A stretch of DNA of 64,000 bases from Nitratiruptor sp. YY09-18 (GTDB lineage Bacteria > Campylobacterota > Campylobacteria > Campylobacterales > Nitratiruptoraceae): the NCBI RefSeq assembly GCF_016593235.1, contig NZ_AP023065.1, forward strand, positions 1,302,001 through 1,366,000, written 5' to 3'. Positions 1,814 through 12,765 of this stretch are shown piece after piece. A model generated the notes under the pieces. It was not told where the DNA came from. It made no database searches and was given only the letters and a program-made list of their open reading frames with translations. Numbering within the stretch: the stretch's first letter is position 1; every line of letters starts with the position of its first letter. A program made the position numbers and the translations under genes.

Positions 1814-2086
1814 ATGGAAGTTTTCATCATGTATGATATAAGCTGTGACAAAAAAAGAAATAGAGTAGAAAAGCTCCTTTCTTCTTATGGGTACAGAGTA
1901 AACTATTCAGTATTTGAGATTTCAATTTCAAAAGCCAAATACAAAAAACTCATACAAAATCTCAAAGATCTTACTTCAAAAAAAGATAATGTAAGAGTCT
2001 ATATCCTCACAAAAGAAGTTATTAAAAAATCTTTTAGATTACATTCTCATGAAGGAATATTTAATAATGAAGAGTTATATTTTTAG
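1814..2086 (+). CDS. cas2: CRISPR-associated endonuclease Cas2
   Basis: Cas2, the 90-residue structural partner of Cas1 in the spacer integration complex. It has the ferredoxin-like start EVFIMYDISCDKKRNRVEKLL with the conserved aspartate D8, and SYGYRVNYSVFEI, the second beta strand found in most Cas2 proteins. The length is normal. A second ATG at 1829 would remove the first beta strand, so 1814 is preferred. The 3' end overlaps the RT-Cas1 gene by 20 bases, and the Shine-Dalgarno of the latter sits inside this CDS. Divergent from cas6. Confidence 0.93.
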   Translation: MEVFIMYDISCDKKRNRVEKLLSSYGYRVNYSVFEISISKAKYKKLIQNLKDLTSKKDNVRVYILTKEVIKKSFRLHSHEGIFNNEELYF

Positions 2087-4202
2087 TAAAAAATTTGAAG
2101 ATATTTTTACAGCTGAACGTATCGCATACGAACTTAAAAAAGCAAACATTGAACATATCAAAGGTGATCTCTTTGATTTTGCTCCCCATAAGAGTTTTAC
2201 AATACCAAAAAACTCAGGTGATTTTCGCCAAATCTCCATACCAGATCAAAAAGCCAAAGTCATTCAAAAAATTCTTCATGATGAGCTCTCTTCAGTTTTA
2301 AAATTTAGTGATAGAAACTATGCTTATCAAAAGAACAAATCTCCTTTCAAAGCGATCAATAGAGTAAAACACATTATCAAAAATTACGATTTTATTCTCA
2401 AAGTCGACATCAAAGATTTCTTTGACTCTATCAATCACGAAAAACTCCTTGCAAAACTAAAAAATATTGTCAAAGATCCAAAAATAATCTATCTCATAGC
2501 GCTCTTTCTCAAGAATGGCTCTCTTTTCCATAACAAATGGATAGATAAAACTGAAGGTGTCTATCAAGGTGATGTCCTAAGCCCTCTATTGTCAAATATC
2601 TATATGCATAGTTTTGATATTAGCTGTGAAAAAGAAGGTATAGAATTTGTCCGTTTTGCAGATGATATGATATTTTTTGCTTCAACTTATAGCGAAGCAA
2701 GATCAATACTTAACAAAATCAAACAAAAACTCGCCCGAGAAGATCTTTCACTCCATCCTGACAAACTCTATATTACACACAAAAACAAGCCTTTTGAATA
2801 TTTAGGGATAAAATTTGATATACCAAACAATCTATTCTCTATTGAAAATGAAAGATTAATGAACAAAATCTCTACAATTTCCAAAGAGACCAAAAATCTC
2901 AATCTAGACCAAACCATCCAGAAACTCAATGAACATATTCAAAGCTTTCTCAACTATTATGCAAAGATAATCAACAATTACGAGCAGCTGCAACTCCTTC
3001 AACAAAGAGTAGATGAGATCGTTATCTCTAAAATAGTTCAAGCCAAATTGACCAAGACTATCACACGCAAAAAAGATTTTTTACATAAATTGTCATCGCT
3101 TCTAGCCTATACGCAAACAGACCCTGTATTCCTTGTTAGAAAAGCATATGAAGAGATTAAATTGAAAAATCCAAAATTAGCAGCCCAAAAAACAGTAGAG
3201 AGAAAAAAGCAAAATTTTTATAAAAATCATCTCAAAACAACAGAGCTTATCATATCAACTCCAGGCACATATCTCTCCTTTTCTCAAGGAAAGATAAAAA
3301 TCAAAACCCACAATCAAGCTATCAAAAAGATTCCATTCAAAAAAGTCCAAAGAATCATAATTCTCACAACAAGAAGTTCAATCTCCACATATCTGATAAA
3401 AAAATGTGCAGAAGAAAAAATTGATATAGATTTTATTTCAGAGAATGTACCATACGCCCTGCTTACATATCACAAAACAATAGCCAAAGAGCTCCATCTC
3501 AAACAACTCAAGCTCACCCTTTCACCAAAAGGATTGCATTATACCCAAAACCTCTACTATGCAAAAGCAAAAAACCAACGCAATCTTTTAAAATACTTCA
3601 ATCTCAGAAGAAAAGATGAAAAATTACAACATTATATAGACAAAATCTCTACTCTCATACCTAAAATAAAAAATGCAAAAGATACTAAAAACTTAATGGG
3701 TCTAGAAGCACAAATTAGCCAACTCTACTGGAATGGATTTAAAGTTATTACCCACTTATCACAATTCCAGCGAACCCACAAAAACTCCATTGACCCCATC
3801 AACCAAGCCCTTAACTATGGCTATGCCATACTTTATAATAGAATTCAATCAGCTCTTATAAAAGAGGGCTTGAATATCTACTACTCGTTTTTACACGCCA
3901 CAGATTATCGCAAACCAACATTAGTCTTTGATATGATAGAGCCTTTTCGTCAGCCAATTGTCGATCGTGAAATCATCTCCATTCTTACCAAAAATCAAAC
4001 CATAAAACAAAAAAATGGCAAACTCACTCCGGATTCAGTCAAACTCATTACCCAAAATATCCAAGAGCGCCTCGCATCTTTTACCAAAACAAAATATGGC
4101 AAAACTACCTATTTAAATCTTATCCATTTTGAAATGAACGCACTCAAAAAAGCTATCGAAAATGAAGATCCACATCACACATTTTTTATAGCAAAATATT
4201 AA
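2067..4202 (+). CDS. cas1: Reverse transcriptase-Cas1 fusion protein
   Basis: Fusion of a group II intron-type reverse transcriptase to the Cas1 integrase, known in type III systems to acquire spacers from RNA as well as DNA. RT domain about residues 40-380: KVDIKDFFDS with D114, QGDVLSPLLSN at 167-177, and the active site FADD at 197-200 (usually YADD). Cas1 domain about residues 392-711: GLEAQ with E547, LHATDY with H610, and FDMIEPFR with D622, so the metal-binding triad is complete. No Cas6 domain is fused; cas6 is separate. I chose the ATG at 2067 because GAAGGA lies 10 bases before it, while the in-frame ATG at 2049 has no ribosome site. Both catalytic centres look intact, in contrast to cas10 and cas6. 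Confidence 0.95.
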   Translation: MKSYIFSKKFEDIFTAERIAYELKKANIEHIKGDLFDFAPHKSFTIPKNSGDFRQISIPDQKAKVIQKILHDELSSVLKFSDRNYAYQKNKSPFKAINRVKHIIKNYDFILKVDIKDFFDSINHEKLLAKLKNIVKDPKIIYLIALFLKNGSLFHNKWIDKTEGVYQGDVLSPLLSNIYMHSFDISCEKEGIEFVRFADDMIFFASTYSEARSILNKIKQKLAREDLSLHPDKLYITHKNKPFEYLGIKFDIPNNLFSIENERLMNKISTISKETKNLNLDQTIQKLNEHIQSFLNYYAKIINNYEQLQLLQQRVDEIVISKIVQAKLTKTITRKKDFLHKLSSLLAYTQTDPVFLVRKAYEEIKLKNPKLAAQKTVERKKQNFYKNHLKTTELIISTPGTYLSFSQGKIKIKTHNQAIKKIPFKKVQRIIILTTRSSISTYLIKKCAEEKIDIDFISENVPYALLTYHKTIAKELHLKQLKLTLSPKGLHYTQNLYYAKAKNQRNLLKYFNLRRKDEKLQHYIDKISTLIPKIKNAKDTKNLMGLEAQISQLYWNGFKVITHLSQFQRTHKNSIDPINQALNYGYAILYNRIQSALIKEGLNIYYSFLHATDYRKPTLVFDMIEPFRQPIVDREIISILTKNQTIKQKNGKLTPDSVKLITQNIQERLASFTKTKYGKTTYLNLIHFEMNALKKAIENEDPHHTFFIAKY

Positions 4203-4252
4203 AAACGATGTTAGAACTTTTTATTTAAAATTGGTTTCAGTCTAAAACTAAA

Positions 4253-4282
4253 AACTCCCATTTCATGGAGTTATTATTTTTT
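4253..4282 (+). terminator. Terminator-like hairpin after RT-cas1
   Basis: Stem AACTCC (4253-4258) and GGAGTT (4267-4272) with an 8-base loop, followed after four bases by a T-rich run to 4282. It lies 50 bases after the RT-cas1 stop, as expected for the end of the cas2/RT-cas1 transcript. Confidence 0.55.
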
Positions 4283-4358
4283 CTTATAGTTCTAACTTCA
4301 GAGATTTTTAAAATTCTAAAAAGGAGATATTAGAACTTTTAGCTCTTTTTAAGTTTGG

Positions 4359-4387
4359 GAAGTACCATTTTACGGTCTTCTTTTTTT
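4359..4387 (+). terminator. Second terminator-like hairpin in the leader
   Basis: Stem GAAG-T-ACC (4359-4366) and GGTCTTC (4374-4380), with one bulged T and a 7-base loop, followed directly by seven T. It lies between a direct and an inverted copy of the GTTAGAAC motif, so it repeats the motif-hairpin-motif layout seen 100 bases upstream. Confidence 0.55.
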
Positions 4388-4597
4388 GCAAAGTTCTAAC
4401 ATCGCATTTTTAACACATAATTTTTTTCGATGTTAGAACTTTTTTGAAGTCAAAAATCCCCTATTGAAGGGAATTTAAGTTAAAATTAAGCACTTTTTGC
4501 ATATGATATTTGCATAGATGTTAGAACTTTTTTGGATATTTGAAAACTCGGTTGTTTTTAAGAAGAAGTCTTACTTATAAGTCTCATTGTATGGATT

Positions 4598-4871
4598 ATT
4601 TACCTATTGGACCCGATCTTAAGGGGATTGAGACATTAACTTCTATTGTAGGTGATGGAAAAAATATATAGTTGGGATTTACCTATTGGACCCGATCTGA
4701 AGGGGATTGAGACCTTTAAGATAAAGCTCTCTTTTTTCTGCATTGCTCATTGTCGCATTTACCTATTGGACCCGATCTGAAGGGGATTGAGACACTCTTC
4801 TATCTATATCAATCATCTTAACCTCCTTAAAATTTAAAAATTTACCTATTGGACCCGATCTTAAGGGGATT
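4598..4871 (+). CRISPR. CRISPR array, four repeats and three spacers
   Basis: Repeats of 37 bases begin ATTTACCTATTGGACC and end GGGGATTGAGAC, at 4598-4634, 4677-4713, 4757-4793, plus a last copy 4840-4871 that loses its final five bases. Copies differ only at one base (CTT/CTG). Spacers: 4635-4676 (42), 4714-4756 (43), 4794-4839 (46). The 3' end ATTGAGAC fits the eight-base 5' tag of type I/III crRNA, so transcription is on the plus strand from the leader at 4203-4597. All three spacers, reverse-complemented, are open in one frame. Spacer 3 reversed contains AAGGAGGTTAAGATG, a ribosome site plus start codon, so its crRNA would be antisense to a gene start. Confidence 0.93.
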
Positions 4872-4875
4872 TCGG

Positions 4876-5545
4876 TAACCAGGCGTAGGCTATGCTCGTT
4901 TCACTCGCATAAACGCCTCGCCGTGCGAGCCTAAAAAAGCCAAGCAGTTGGCTTTTTCTTCACGGCTCTCCCCTATTGGACCCGATTTGAAGTGAGCGAG
5001 GGCAAAACGCAGTTTTAGGACAACAACTGCTTGTTGTCCGTACCTGAGCGAAATCTGCGAGTATATGTGAGTCCTAAAATCAAGGATTTTAGTGACAAAC
5101 ATACAAGCAGATGGTTTACTTTGAAATAAATGAAGTTGAGCGAAGCGAAACAAGTTTATGGTTAAATTGCAAGCCAAAGGCTTGAGAAAGCAAACTGCTT
5201 TGCTTTCGTCACGAAGCGAAAGTCGTGAGTATATGCGAAGCCAAAATTCAAGGAATTTTGTGTCTGAGCATATGAGCGGCTCGTTTACCTTGAAGCAAAC
5301 GAAGTTGTGCGAAGCGAAACAAGTTTGCGGTTACTGCTTTATTTTAAAAATTTCAATAACCAGGCGTAGGCTGTATTGAAGAAATAACCGCAAATCTTGC
5401 ATTATTGCATAATGAAGATTTGCTTTAAGGTAACCTGTCAGTTTATATGTTCATCACTTCATTGCAAGCAATGAAGGATTCACATACATAAACTGCCGTC
5501 GCAAAAGCACGCAAAACAAGCAGTTGTTTTGCTAAGCAAGGCTTG
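4876..5545. repeat. Four copies of a hairpin-rich repeat element, tandem and inverted
   Basis: Almost gene-free stretch made of related units. Forward copies lie at about 5005-5163 and 5172-5335, reverse copies at about 4876-4960 (partial) and 5357-5545. Each unit has hairpin A (stem 9-10 bp, loop CTGC or its complement GCAG): stems at 4934-4957, 5018-5039, 5186-5207 and 5511-5532. Three have hairpin B (loop AAG, or AA in the third): 5074-5092, 5242-5260, 5457-5476. A third hairpin near the end is clearest at 5390-5423. The stem sequences differ between copies but stay perfectly paired. The linker between A and B has a shared core like GTATATGTGAGTCC, and unit ends share CAAGTTTGCGGTTA. TAACCAGGCGTAGGCT occurs at 4876 and 5357. 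Function unknown. Confidence 0.75.
4972..4992 (+). repeat. Degenerate CRISPR repeat fragment
   Basis: CCTATTGGACCCGATTTGAAG matches the inner part of the array repeat at 20 of 21 bases, 101 bases after the last array repeat. It joins the first reverse hairpin element to the first forward one. It lacks both ends of the repeat. Confidence 0.75.
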
Positions 5546-5555
5546 CTTTTGCTCC

Positions 5556-5570
5556 CCTATTAGACCCGAT
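5556..5570 (+). repeat. Second degenerate CRISPR repeat fragment
   Basis: CCTATTAGACCCGAT matches the repeat core at 14 of 15 bases. Like the copy at 4972 it is preceded by CTCC and follows a reverse-oriented hairpin element, so it marks the right border of the repeat-element cluster and probably the former end of the array. Confidence 0.65.
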
Positions 5571-5672
5571 TAATAAGTTTGTGGTTAAGATAGATCCTTC
5601 GCTTGTGCTCAGGATGACGAGACTTCTATTTTTAAAATATATTTTATAGACAATTTATGACGCTTTAAAGAT
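5571..5672. other. AT-rich gap before the small membrane gene
   Basis: About 100 bases without an ORF. It contains GATCCTTCGCTTGTGCTC followed by AGGATGACGA, a REP-like motif with a short inverted repeat (ATCCT and AGGAT), and otherwise AT-rich sequence that probably holds the promoter of the next gene. Confidence 0.35.
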
Positions 5673-5698
5673 GTATCCTTTCAAAAAAGAAAGGATAC
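5673..5698 (+). promoter_or_regulatory. Hairpin sequestering a ribosome binding site
   Basis: Perfect 10-bp stem GTATCCTTTC (5673-5682), loop of six A, GAAAGGATAC (5689-5698). The right arm contains the Shine-Dalgarno AAAGGA for the ATG at 5702, so the site is fully base-paired when the hairpin forms. This is the layout of a translational switch such as an RNA thermometer or a protein-controlled leader; which one cannot be told from sequence. Confidence 0.6.
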
Positions 5699-5701
5699 AA
5701 A

Positions 5702-5950
5702 ATGCAAGAATTTCTCTATCTGTTGGGGGGGGGTGCCAGCGCTTTTGTGGCAATATTTGTCTGGAGAACTTTTTTCTTCGTGAGTGCCATTGTGATGGCT
5801 TATGCCTTTATCAATAAAAGTTTAGATATAGGTGATGCGATCATGATGGTTTTGGGATATGCTTTGGTGGGTTTCGCGTGTATAATCATTGGAGGCTTGG
5901 CTATAATGTGGGCAGAAAAAATGAAGGGTGGAGACCATTTTAGTCATTGA
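5702..5950 (+). CDS. Small membrane protein with G9 tract, unknown function
   Basis: An 82-residue protein I do not recognise. It has two or three hydrophobic stretches (about residues 7-35 and 47-72) split by a short polar segment INKSLDIGD, and ends in a charged tail with WAEKMKGGDHFSH, so it is probably an integral inner-membrane protein with two or three helices. The start is fixed by AAAGGA six bases upstream, inside a hairpin. Codons 8-11 contain a run of nine G (5725-5733). Loss or gain of one G shifts the frame into early stops, so the present length is the ON state of a possible phase-variable gene. It is the only credible gene between the CRISPR array and the ovothiol operon. Confidence 0.6.
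   Translation: MQEFLYLLGGGASAFVAIFVWRTFFFVSAIVMAYAFINKSLDIGDAIMMVLGYALVGFACIIIGGLAIMWAEKMKGGDHFSH
5725..5733 (+). repeat. Homopolymer G9 inside a coding region
   Basis: Nine consecutive G at codons 8-11 of the small membrane gene. Campylobacter and Helicobacter use G8-G12 tracts as slipped-strand phase-variation switches; the length and early position here fit that use. Confidence 0.6.
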
Positions 5951-5953
5951 GAA

Positions 5954-5979
5954 TTTTGGGTATATATTTTGGGTATATA
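5954..5979 (+). repeat. Two tandem 13-bp repeats
   Basis: TTTTGGGTATATA occurs twice in direct succession just after the stop codon of the small membrane gene. Confidence 0.7.
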
Positions 5980-6047
5980 TATGGCCTTCCATACTCCTTT
6001 GGATCTATGTGGCGATTATGTTCTCTTGACATGCTCCCCATGTAATT

Positions 6048-6057
6048 GGGGGGGGGG
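6048..6057 (+). repeat. Homopolymer G10 in non-coding DNA
   Basis: Ten consecutive G in a 258-base stretch with no convincing gene (5951-6208). A CTCCCC run lies a few bases upstream and could pair with it. It may be a promoter-length switch or a relic of a lost phase-variable gene. Confidence 0.55.
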
Positions 6058-6094
6058 ATCAGGTAATAACAGCATATAATATAGGCTATAAACA

Positions 6095-6137
6095 CCTGGC
6101 ATAGGTTATGCAAACACGCTTGCATATATGCCCATAT
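6095..6137 (+). repeat. Relic copy of the hairpin-element end
   Basis: CCTGGCATAGGTTATGC here matches CCAGGCGTAGGCTATGC at 4879-4895 at 14 of 17 bases, and the similarity continues as a pattern (GCATATATGCC against GCATAAACGCC). It is a diverged extra copy of the end of the repeat element, outside the main cluster. Confidence 0.45.
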
Positions 6138-6156
6138 TGGATCTTTTAAAAAGTAG

Positions 6157-6193
6157 TCAGCTACCCCACGCCTAAAGGCGGGGGAGTAGCTGA
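6157..6193 (-). terminator. Strong terminator hairpin after the ovothiol operon
   Basis: Stem TCAGCTAC (6157-6164) with GTAGCTGA (6186-6193), continued by C and G runs and CGCC/GGCG closing a TAAA loop. Read on the minus strand it follows the zinc-finger gene stop at 6209 and is followed by CTACTTTTT. The GCCTTTAGGC core also resembles the end hairpins of IS200/IS605 elements, but no transposase is nearby. Confidence 0.65.
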
Positions 6194-6208
6194 TCCAAAT
6201 ATTCATTG

Positions 6209-10812: not shown

Positions 10813-12765
10813 ATGGAAAAAGTACCTGTTTTTGACCCGACTCCTAGAATAAAAGAGCGTGCTCGCATTAATTCTATGGATCAGTATTGGCAAATGGTAA
10901 AAGAGGCTGAGAGTGATTATGAAGGATTTTGGGACAGACTGGCAAAAGAGAAGATTAATTGGCGAGAGTCTTATACAAAAGTACTGGATGAGAGTGATGC
11001 GCCGTTTTATAAATGGTTCGTAGGTGGTAAGCTCAATGTCACTGAGCAGTGTATCGATAGACACTTAGAAAACAGAAAAAACAAAGCTGCAATTATTTGG
11101 GAAGGTGAGCCGGGGGACAAAAGAGTTATCACCTATCTTGATCTTTACTATGAAGTGAACAAGTTTGCAAATCTTCTCAAAAACAAGTTTGGTATCAAAA
11201 AAGGTGATCGCGTTGTTATCTATATGCCAATGATTCCAGAAGCTGCTTTTGCAATGCTAGCGTGTGCGAGAATCGGAGCGATTCACTCAGTAGTTTTTGG
11301 TGGATTTAGCACCGAAGCCTTGCGCGATCGTATTGCTGATGCACAAGCAAAACTCGTCATCACTGCTGATGGAGCATATAGACGCGGTAAACCATATCTT
11401 CTCAAACCTGTTGTAGATGTGGCACTCTCAAAAGATTGTGAGAGTGTAGAAGCAGTATTGGTAGTAAGAAGAAACAACGAAGAGATCAAGTGGCATGAGG
11501 GAAGAGACTATGACTACTTTGAGCTAGTCAAAGATATGCCTACTCGTTGTGAGCCTGAAATCATGGACAGTGAAGATCCACTCTTCTTGCTCTATACTTC
11601 AGGCAGTACCGGCAAGCCAAAAGGTGTGCAGCATTCACAAGCTGGATATATTCTGTGGGCACAACTGACAATGGAGTGGGTATTTGATATCAAGGATACT
11701 GATACTTACTGGTGTACTGCTGATATCGGCTGGATTACAGGGCATACATATATTGTTTATGGACCATTAGCTGCAGGTGGTACAACCCTCATGTACGAAG
11801 GAACTCCCACATATCCAGATGCTGGTAGATGGTGGAGAATGATTGAAGAGCACAAAGTCAACCAGTTCTATACAGCACCGACTGCTATTCGCCTCTTGCA
11901 CAAACTTGGACCAGACGAGCCAGACAAATATGATCTTAGCAGCCTCTATATCCTCGGAACTGTAGGTGAACCTATCAACCCGGATGCTTGGATGTGGTAC
12001 TTTGAAAAAGTGGGTGGCGGACAGTGCCCAATTGTGGATACCTGGTGGCAGACTGAAACAGGAGGCCACATGATTAGTCCACTTCCAGGTGCAACTCCAA
12101 TCAAACCAGGCTCAGCCACCTTCCCACTTCCAGGAATCTTTGCTGAGATCATCGATAAAGATGGCAATAAAATGCCTCCAAATGAAAAAGGGTATCTCTG
12201 TATCACCAAGCCTTGGCCAAGTATGATTAGAACTATCTGGGGAGATCCAGATAGATTTGTCAAAAGCTACTTTGGCACATGTAAAAAAGATGGAAAGCCA
12301 GTCTATTTCAGTGGGGATGGTGCGATTTATGATGAAGATGGCTACATCTGGATCACAGGACGTATGGATGATGTGATTAATGTCAGCGGTCACCGCCTAG
12401 GCACTGCAGAGATCGAAGCAGCTATCGGCCACCATCCAAGAGTTGCAGAGTGCGCAGTTGTGGGAAAACCGCATGAAGTGAAGGGAGAGAGTGTCTTCGC
12501 ATTTGTAGTGCTCAAAGACGATGAAGGCATGGCAGATGAGATGGAACTCATCAAAGAGATCAATGAAGTAATCACAAAAGATATCGGGCCACTTGCAAAA
12601 TGCGACGAGATAGCATTTGTACCGGGCTTGCCAAAAACAAGAAGCGGGAAGATCATGCGAAGAATCCTCAGAGCCATCGCAAAAGGTGAAGAGATCAAAC
12701 AAGATACTTCAACACTCGAAGATCCAAGTGTTGTAGAAAAGATTATCCAAATCGTACAAAAGTAA
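10813..12765 (+). CDS. acsA: Acetyl-CoA synthetase
   Basis: AMP-forming acetate-CoA ligase of 650 residues, the normal length. The adenylate-forming motif [24 protein letters not shown] and the hinge region [20 protein letters not shown] are present. The C-terminal [11 protein letters not shown] contains the lysine that is acetylated in known Acs enzymes. It activates acetate with ATP and CoA in the cytoplasm. The Sir2 homologue at 20980 could in principle deacetylate this lysine, as CobB does elsewhere. AAAGGATGAAAG precedes the ATG. Single gene ending in a hairpin shared with the convergent operon. Confidence 0.97.

Follow-up and report, generated by a model that had tools for sequence, protein, structure and literature searches.

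A structured repeat family of Campylobacterales located at the ends of genes and in the terminal repeat of CRISPR arrays

Beyond the distal end of a CRISPR array in Nitratiruptor sp. YY09-18, a strain for which III-A and II-C CRISPR systems have been reported (PMC9723563), hairpin-forming units lie between pieces of CRISPR repeat, which raises the question of whether they are mobile elements that landed in the array or material that the CRISPR machinery itself placed there. The window analyzed here is a stretch of 64,000 nt, positions 1302001-1366000 of contig 1 in a genome of 1.757 Mb (G000 in our numbering of genomes; L numbers denote loci). A preliminary description had placed four related units in 700 gene-free bases, bounded by repeat pieces, and had offered two origins for them: mobile hairpin elements inserting at CRISPR repeats, or RT-Cas1 integration of structured RNA. 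All of the parts that it listed are present, the array repeat does end at 4871 with further pieces starting at 4972 and 5556, and the window ORF scan gives no ORF of at least 100 aa in 4203-6208. The features of the locus are the following.

2049-4202, + strand: RT-Cas1 fusion gene upstream of the array (Pfam RVT_1, 1.8e-38; Cas_Cas1, 7.6e-61)
4598-4871, + strand: CRISPR array of three full repeats, ATTTACCTATTGGACCCGATCTKAAGGGGATTGAGAC, and a cut last repeat; an orthologous array is present in G015 (L215)
4840-4871, + strand: last array repeat, cut at ...AAGGGGATT, the array end
4872-4971, - strand: divergent reverse unit, type B, with P1, a P1b hairpin with CTGC loop, and P2; ends GGTTACCGA
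4934-4957, in the reverse unit: CTGC-loop hairpin AAAAAGCCAA, perfectly paired
4972-4992, + strand: trimmed repeat piece CCTATTGGACCCGATTTGAAG, from repeat matches
4993-5164, + strand: unit U1, type A (178 bits, family model)
within 5014-5036: CTGC-loop hairpin GGACAACAA, perfectly paired
5166-5333, + strand: unit U2, type A, in tandem with U1 (153 bits, family model)
within 5187-5208: CTGC-loop hairpin GAAAGCAAA, perfectly paired
5356-5374, - strand: fragment of a type B unit, AATAACCAGGCGTAGGCTG, a repeat-family match
5385-5555, - strand: unit U3, type A, divergent (143 bits, family model)
within 5511-5532: CTGC-loop hairpin GCAAAACAA, perfectly paired
5556-5571, + strand: trimmed repeat piece CCTATTAGACCCGATT, also at the orthologous G015 locus
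5572-5587, + strand: 3' remnant of one more type A unit, AATAAGTTTGTGGTTA, preserved in G015 (L215)
about 6085-6140, - strand: P2-stem-like fragment of a type B unit, weak and identified by eye, also found 3' of the G015 array

The stretch from 4872 to 5587 consists of three near-complete units of about 170 nt (two forward, one reverse), the divergent reverse unit and the 3' remnant, connected by trimmed pieces of CRISPR repeat; CCTATTGGACCCGAT has 6 matches against a chance expectation of 0.7. U1 begins with TGAGCGAGG at a repeat position identical to that in other arrays. The type B unit scores 36 bits with the family model, as against 143-178 bits for the other units of the window, and was aligned with copies from G015, G009, G017 and G025. 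The four hairpins with different stems and a common CTGC loop were all recovered, while the second set, with tips AAG, AAG and AA, proved to be the top of each unit's second stem. The 3' remnant and the unit-like fragments at 5356-5374 and about 6085-6140 had been overlooked. Separately, the roughly 400 bases between the RT-Cas1 gene and the array hold five copies of GATGTTAGAACTTTT (4207-4531; four direct and one inverted), a sequence matched 6 times in the window against 0.5 expected by chance.

An alignment of 33 copies, U1-U3 included, yields a fold with three stem regions and 55 base pairs in which 90.9% of the cells are paired. Double compensatory changes occur in 41 of these 55 pairs; none of 500 shuffles reaches the observed pairing or change values, and sliding one partner by one to three columns lowers pairing to 33-46%. 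Against a tree-aware null, in which each column was evolved along the tree of the 33 sequences, the alignment has 335 double-change cells where 300 simulations give 73.6 +/- 11.8 (maximum 113), and a covariation score of 0.50 where the null gives 0.14. The suggestion that selection acts on a folded molecule is upheld by these comparisons among 33 relatives. At two sites in P2, GA faces GA in 27 and 28 of the 33 sequences, a signature that we read as that of tandem sheared G.A pairs, and in P1 GA/GA (12 sequences) interchanges with the Watson-Crick steps AA/TT (6) and TA/TA (4). G.U cells outnumber A.C cells on the sense strand (59 versus 27), indicating that the folded strand reads in the sense of the host gene. 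Rfam 15 contains no relevant family at either permissive or gathering thresholds; the GTGAG..AC ends had suggested that the units might derive from a group II intron, an idea that was dropped as no intron family was matched in that search.

How widely the units are dispersed was addressed with several searches. BLAST over the window's taxonomic family, which can miss divergent copies, finds relatives in 13 of 22 genomes, with 4 to 34 matches per genome (34 in G017, nine in G018, eight in G020 and four in the window's own genome). With a covariance model, 18 of the 298 genomes sampled from the class have matches, among at most nine candidates scored per genome: the strong ones belong to the window's family and to G120, of another family, and weaker ones in further families of Campylobacterales keep the P1b loop and a GAGTATAT...ATACGA motif. 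Across GTDB contigs, which may leave out near relatives of the window genome, the core pattern is confined to Campylobacterales, including a MAG named Nitratiruptor, apart from three isolated hits that we take to be chance. Viral contigs gave zero matches to the core pattern, and phage and plasmid collections only chance matches of 27-33 nt. The units are a previously undescribed structured family of Campylobacterales elements. The preliminary description had reasoned that a mere REP-type repeat landing here by accident would be scattered, with neither a link to CRISPR repeats nor covariation; the copies are indeed scattered, but both the link and the covariation exist.

At three G017 loci (L083, L088 and L093) a type B unit sits within the CTGC hairpin of a type A unit, with no target duplication visible at L083 and L088; such nesting shows that members of the family have moved into one another. 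Whole-unit tandem duplications occur after tsf in G010 (L105), after a grpE-like gene in G020 (L116) and as U1-U2 in the window.

Most copies sit at gene ends, many of them exactly at a stop codon. Leaving aside G017 and the CRISPR copies, the gene preceding a unit usually runs in the sense direction, with its stop at element position 0 to +5, which is the case for about 10 genes. Here the names radA, rny, grpE, fabG, tsf, frr and nusB are our presumptive ones, read from the translations; tsf, frr and fabG are among the element-bearing gene ends in several species. Where orthologues could be compared (radA, rny, grpE, fabG and L085), genes with the element have TGA, supplied by the element itself, in the codon that is TAA or TAG in orthologues without it, as listed here with a slash at the junction.

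GACTGGATG/TGAGC in G012; /TAA in G011, G000 and G015
CATAAA/TGAGC in G017; /TAA in G018 and G020
GCAAGA/TGAGC in G017; GCAAGR/TAA in G021, G018 and G020
GCTAAA/TGAGC in G020; /TAG in G017
ATGTATATG/TGAGC in G000; ATGTATATG/TAA in G016 and G018; TTA/TAA in G001 and G015; ATGTATATG/TGA in G020, which has no element there

The 5' junction therefore coincides with the boundary between sense codons and stop. One exception is the G018 gene that we read as nusB, which extends into the element, and in G017 a purine-rich tract of 7-9-nt repeats usually separates stop and element. These tracts, seen at the flanks of units at L065-L089, are degenerate (GGTTGAA, GGTGGTAAG, GGGGATAAG), lie between stop and unit and again downstream, and are often followed by CCAATGT-type heptamers. 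The frr and tsf positions are ancient and have been passed on by vertical descent; the main signs of recent movement are thus the expansion in G017 and the empty sites. At gene-end copies neither a terminal inverted repeat nor a clear 3' boundary could be made out, nor could a target duplication at stop-codon copies.

The second recurrent position is in CRISPR arrays. We compiled every array of the GACCCGATNNNAAGGGGATTGAGAC class in the family and inspected its distal end: units occupy the leader-distal end of nine of the 11 (arrays 1 and 2 of G000, that of G009, arrays b and c of G015, that of G018 and three in G020), the exceptions being G015 array a and the G002 array, and one more array-end unit was found in G025, of another family. 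Type A units join in the sense direction directly after GACCCGATTTnAAG (GACCCGATTTnAAG/TGAGC) in G000 (twice), G015, G009, G018 and G020, a junction that, in 397 genomes sampled, occurs nowhere beyond the family. Insertion at CRISPR repeats, one of the two origins originally proposed, is in this respect borne out across several unrelated lineages, but not as the only target, given that most copies lie at gene ends. Were units placed at random among 500 transcript ends, the array hits in G000, G015, G018 and G020 would have a chance probability of about 1e-15, a value that ignores shared ancestry, takes the number of sites as given and uses hand-counted loci. A single clade of array copies is rejected by the AU test (p=0.00123); some of the seemingly independent arrivals could reflect recombination between arrays. 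More cautiously put, no fewer than three lineages of the element reached the same repeat position.

The array insertions in G020/G018 and in G000 array 2 have 6-nt ends, GTGAGC...GCTCAC or GCTTAC (with one mismatch in G000 array 2 and G018), and a 5-6-nt duplication, TTTGA(G) or TTTAA, with a mismatch in one copy. Longer repeat overlaps of 13-21 nt surround composite insertions, and in the window, G015, G009 and G025 the repeats next to the units have lost 5 to 20 nt. Some further features of individual arrays were noted: at G018:C1:587350-588873 (L216 1350-2900) a transposase gene, IS110-family-like by eye, interrupts a CRISPR array inside a spacer; near 12743 of G020:C65 (L119) an apparent leader is followed by a single unit-split repeat, an array without spacers; and the second array of the window's own genome has two identical spacers side by side (1290860-1291020; L033 4900-5050).

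How the cluster in the window came about can be read from G015. Array c of that genome is the orthologue of the window array, with the same repeat type, reverse type B unit, CCTATTAGACCCGATT plus AATAAGTTTGTGGTTA and downstream gene, but it has no U1-U3. U1 is 95% identical to the copy in G015 array b, and over the U1-U2 tandem the identity with the tail of that array is 90%. The simplest account is thus a tail exchange in which the window lineage received U1-U3 and one extra repeat piece from a different array, although U1-U3 may instead have been lost from G015. The repeat pieces of the window are remnants of terminal repeats and not evidence of spacer acquisition.

Could the CRISPR adaptation machinery nevertheless have made these arrangements, with Cas1 or RT-Cas1 capturing structured RNA or DNA as oversized spacers? 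Some units do lie between two repeat copies (G015 L215, G025 L218, G009 L109), and the RT-bearing genomes G000, G009, G015 and G025 all have array copies. However, the flanking repeats are trimmed and not whole, the position is leader-distal and not leader-proximal, the units are some 170 nt long with most copies outside arrays, and no reverse transcriptase (PF00078) was detected in G017, with its 34 copies, or in G020, with its three array insertions (a draft genome, 99% complete). We regard this origin as highly improbable, and integration of structured RNA by RT-Cas1, as first proposed, finds no backing. An ordinary REP element mobilized by a RAYT (Y1) transposase would account for non-coding hairpins in both orientations and for type B units entering type A units with no visible target duplication; yet the Y1 family (PF01797), the other family covered by our search for a mobilizing enzyme, has no match in G000, G010, G015, G017, G018 or G020, which leaves the REP-type partner raised at the outset without a candidate in these six genomes, and units with three stem regions and precise stop-codon junctions are not palindromes of 20-40 bp. 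This explanation is improbable. With no Y1 transposase in six genomes and no reverse transcriptase in G017 and G020, neither RAYT nor RT-Cas1 appears to be needed for movement.

Two further explanations were weighed. The terminal repeat of one ancestral array might have received a unit just once, the insertion then being copied to all arrays as they duplicated and recombined, in keeping with the sister copies within G020 and between G018 and G020 and with the U1-U2 tail common to two arrays of G000 and G015; but besides the rejection of one clade, array copies occupy at least three places in the element tree and the arrays differ in the 5' halves of their repeats, so that we consider this slightly more improbable still than a RAYT-driven element. 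The units might instead be immobile now, conserved functional 3'-UTR RNAs (for stability or termination) that spread long ago through recombination and were kept by selection, with the array transcript needing a 3' cap. Strong covariation, sense orientation at gene and array ends, and conservation of the frr and tsf copies across species (frr even across genera) would fit, and against them stand the empty sites at the same genes in close relatives, the 34-copy expansion in G017 only, the TIR-like termini and duplicated targets seen within array repeats and the type B units nested within type A hairpins; on balance we find it unlikely. Probably, then, the units are a MITE- or bcr1-like structured family that lands at the 3' ends of transcripts, the cluster having grown by arrivals and tail swaps. 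Such non-coding mobile elements of about 170 nt would give a sense transcript folding into P1 (three-way, with the CTGC hairpin), P2, a long stem interrupted by tandem G.A steps, and P3. They would insert at the 3' ends of transcribed units, either at stop codons, where the initial TGA of the element becomes the stop, or at one fixed spot in the last repeat of GACCCGAT...AAGGGGATTGAGAC-class arrays, presumably transposed by an enzyme acting in trans. Successive arrivals and tail exchange between arrays would then have built the cluster in the window.

Position and covariation together suggest a putative function: units at stop codons and array ends are probably transcribed together with their host, whose RNA, be it an mRNA or the CRISPR transcript, would then have the folded unit as its 3' end, with a putative role in RNA 3'-end stability. 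It is tempting to speculate, though we hold it possible but doubtful, that the element system recognizes the surroundings of the stop codon and a corresponding site in the terminal CRISPR repeat, that the folded unit serves as the 3' end of both mRNAs and pre-crRNA, and that on arrays it may be a domesticated 3' cap with an effect on the stability of the pre-crRNA or the recombination of the array tail.

Among known repeats, the bcr1-bcr3 elements of the Bacillus cereus group, summarized in PMC3446304 (citing Kristoffersen 2011 and Okstad 2004) as MITE-like, interspersed and often transcribed in UTRs, are similar in being short, non-coding, MITE-like and interspersed. The likeness to what that summary gives is one of kind only, as they belong to another lineage, and the units here have their junctions precisely at stop codons and turn up repeatedly in the terminal repeat of CRISPR arrays. 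REP/BIME elements, imperfect palindromes of 20-40 bp with a GTAG/CGTC-type head and a RAYT transposase (PMC2817692, PMC3733652), share the hairpins, both orientations, gene-end location and pairing kept by complementary changes; the units differ in their length of about 170 nt, their three stems with tandem GA, their TGAGC start in place of such a head and the lack of a detectable Y1 transposase in element-rich genomes. MITEs are likewise short and non-coding, and the short TIR and the duplication of 5-6 nt seen in two array lineages are reminiscent of them, although the TIR here is only 6 nt and the internal fold is conserved by covariation. Insertion sequences in CRISPR-cas loci (PMC10359306, for ISs in cas genes) are also mobile DNA landing in a CRISPR locus; the units, however, are non-coding, recur at the same nucleotide of the terminal repeat and leave the upstream array intact.

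In our judgement the cluster represents a genuine family of structured, mobile repeats, comparable in kind to MITE, REP and bcr elements but a new family in itself, with two unusually precise landing sites. Small structured repeats of bacteria are usually described by copy number alone; here, precise junctions, empty sites, covariation and two reused sites make the questions of what mobilizes them and why they are found at gene ends directly testable. Their recurrence at the last repeat turns attention to array tails, a rarely studied part of CRISPR arrays, and asks whether these need, tolerate or attract a structured 3' end.
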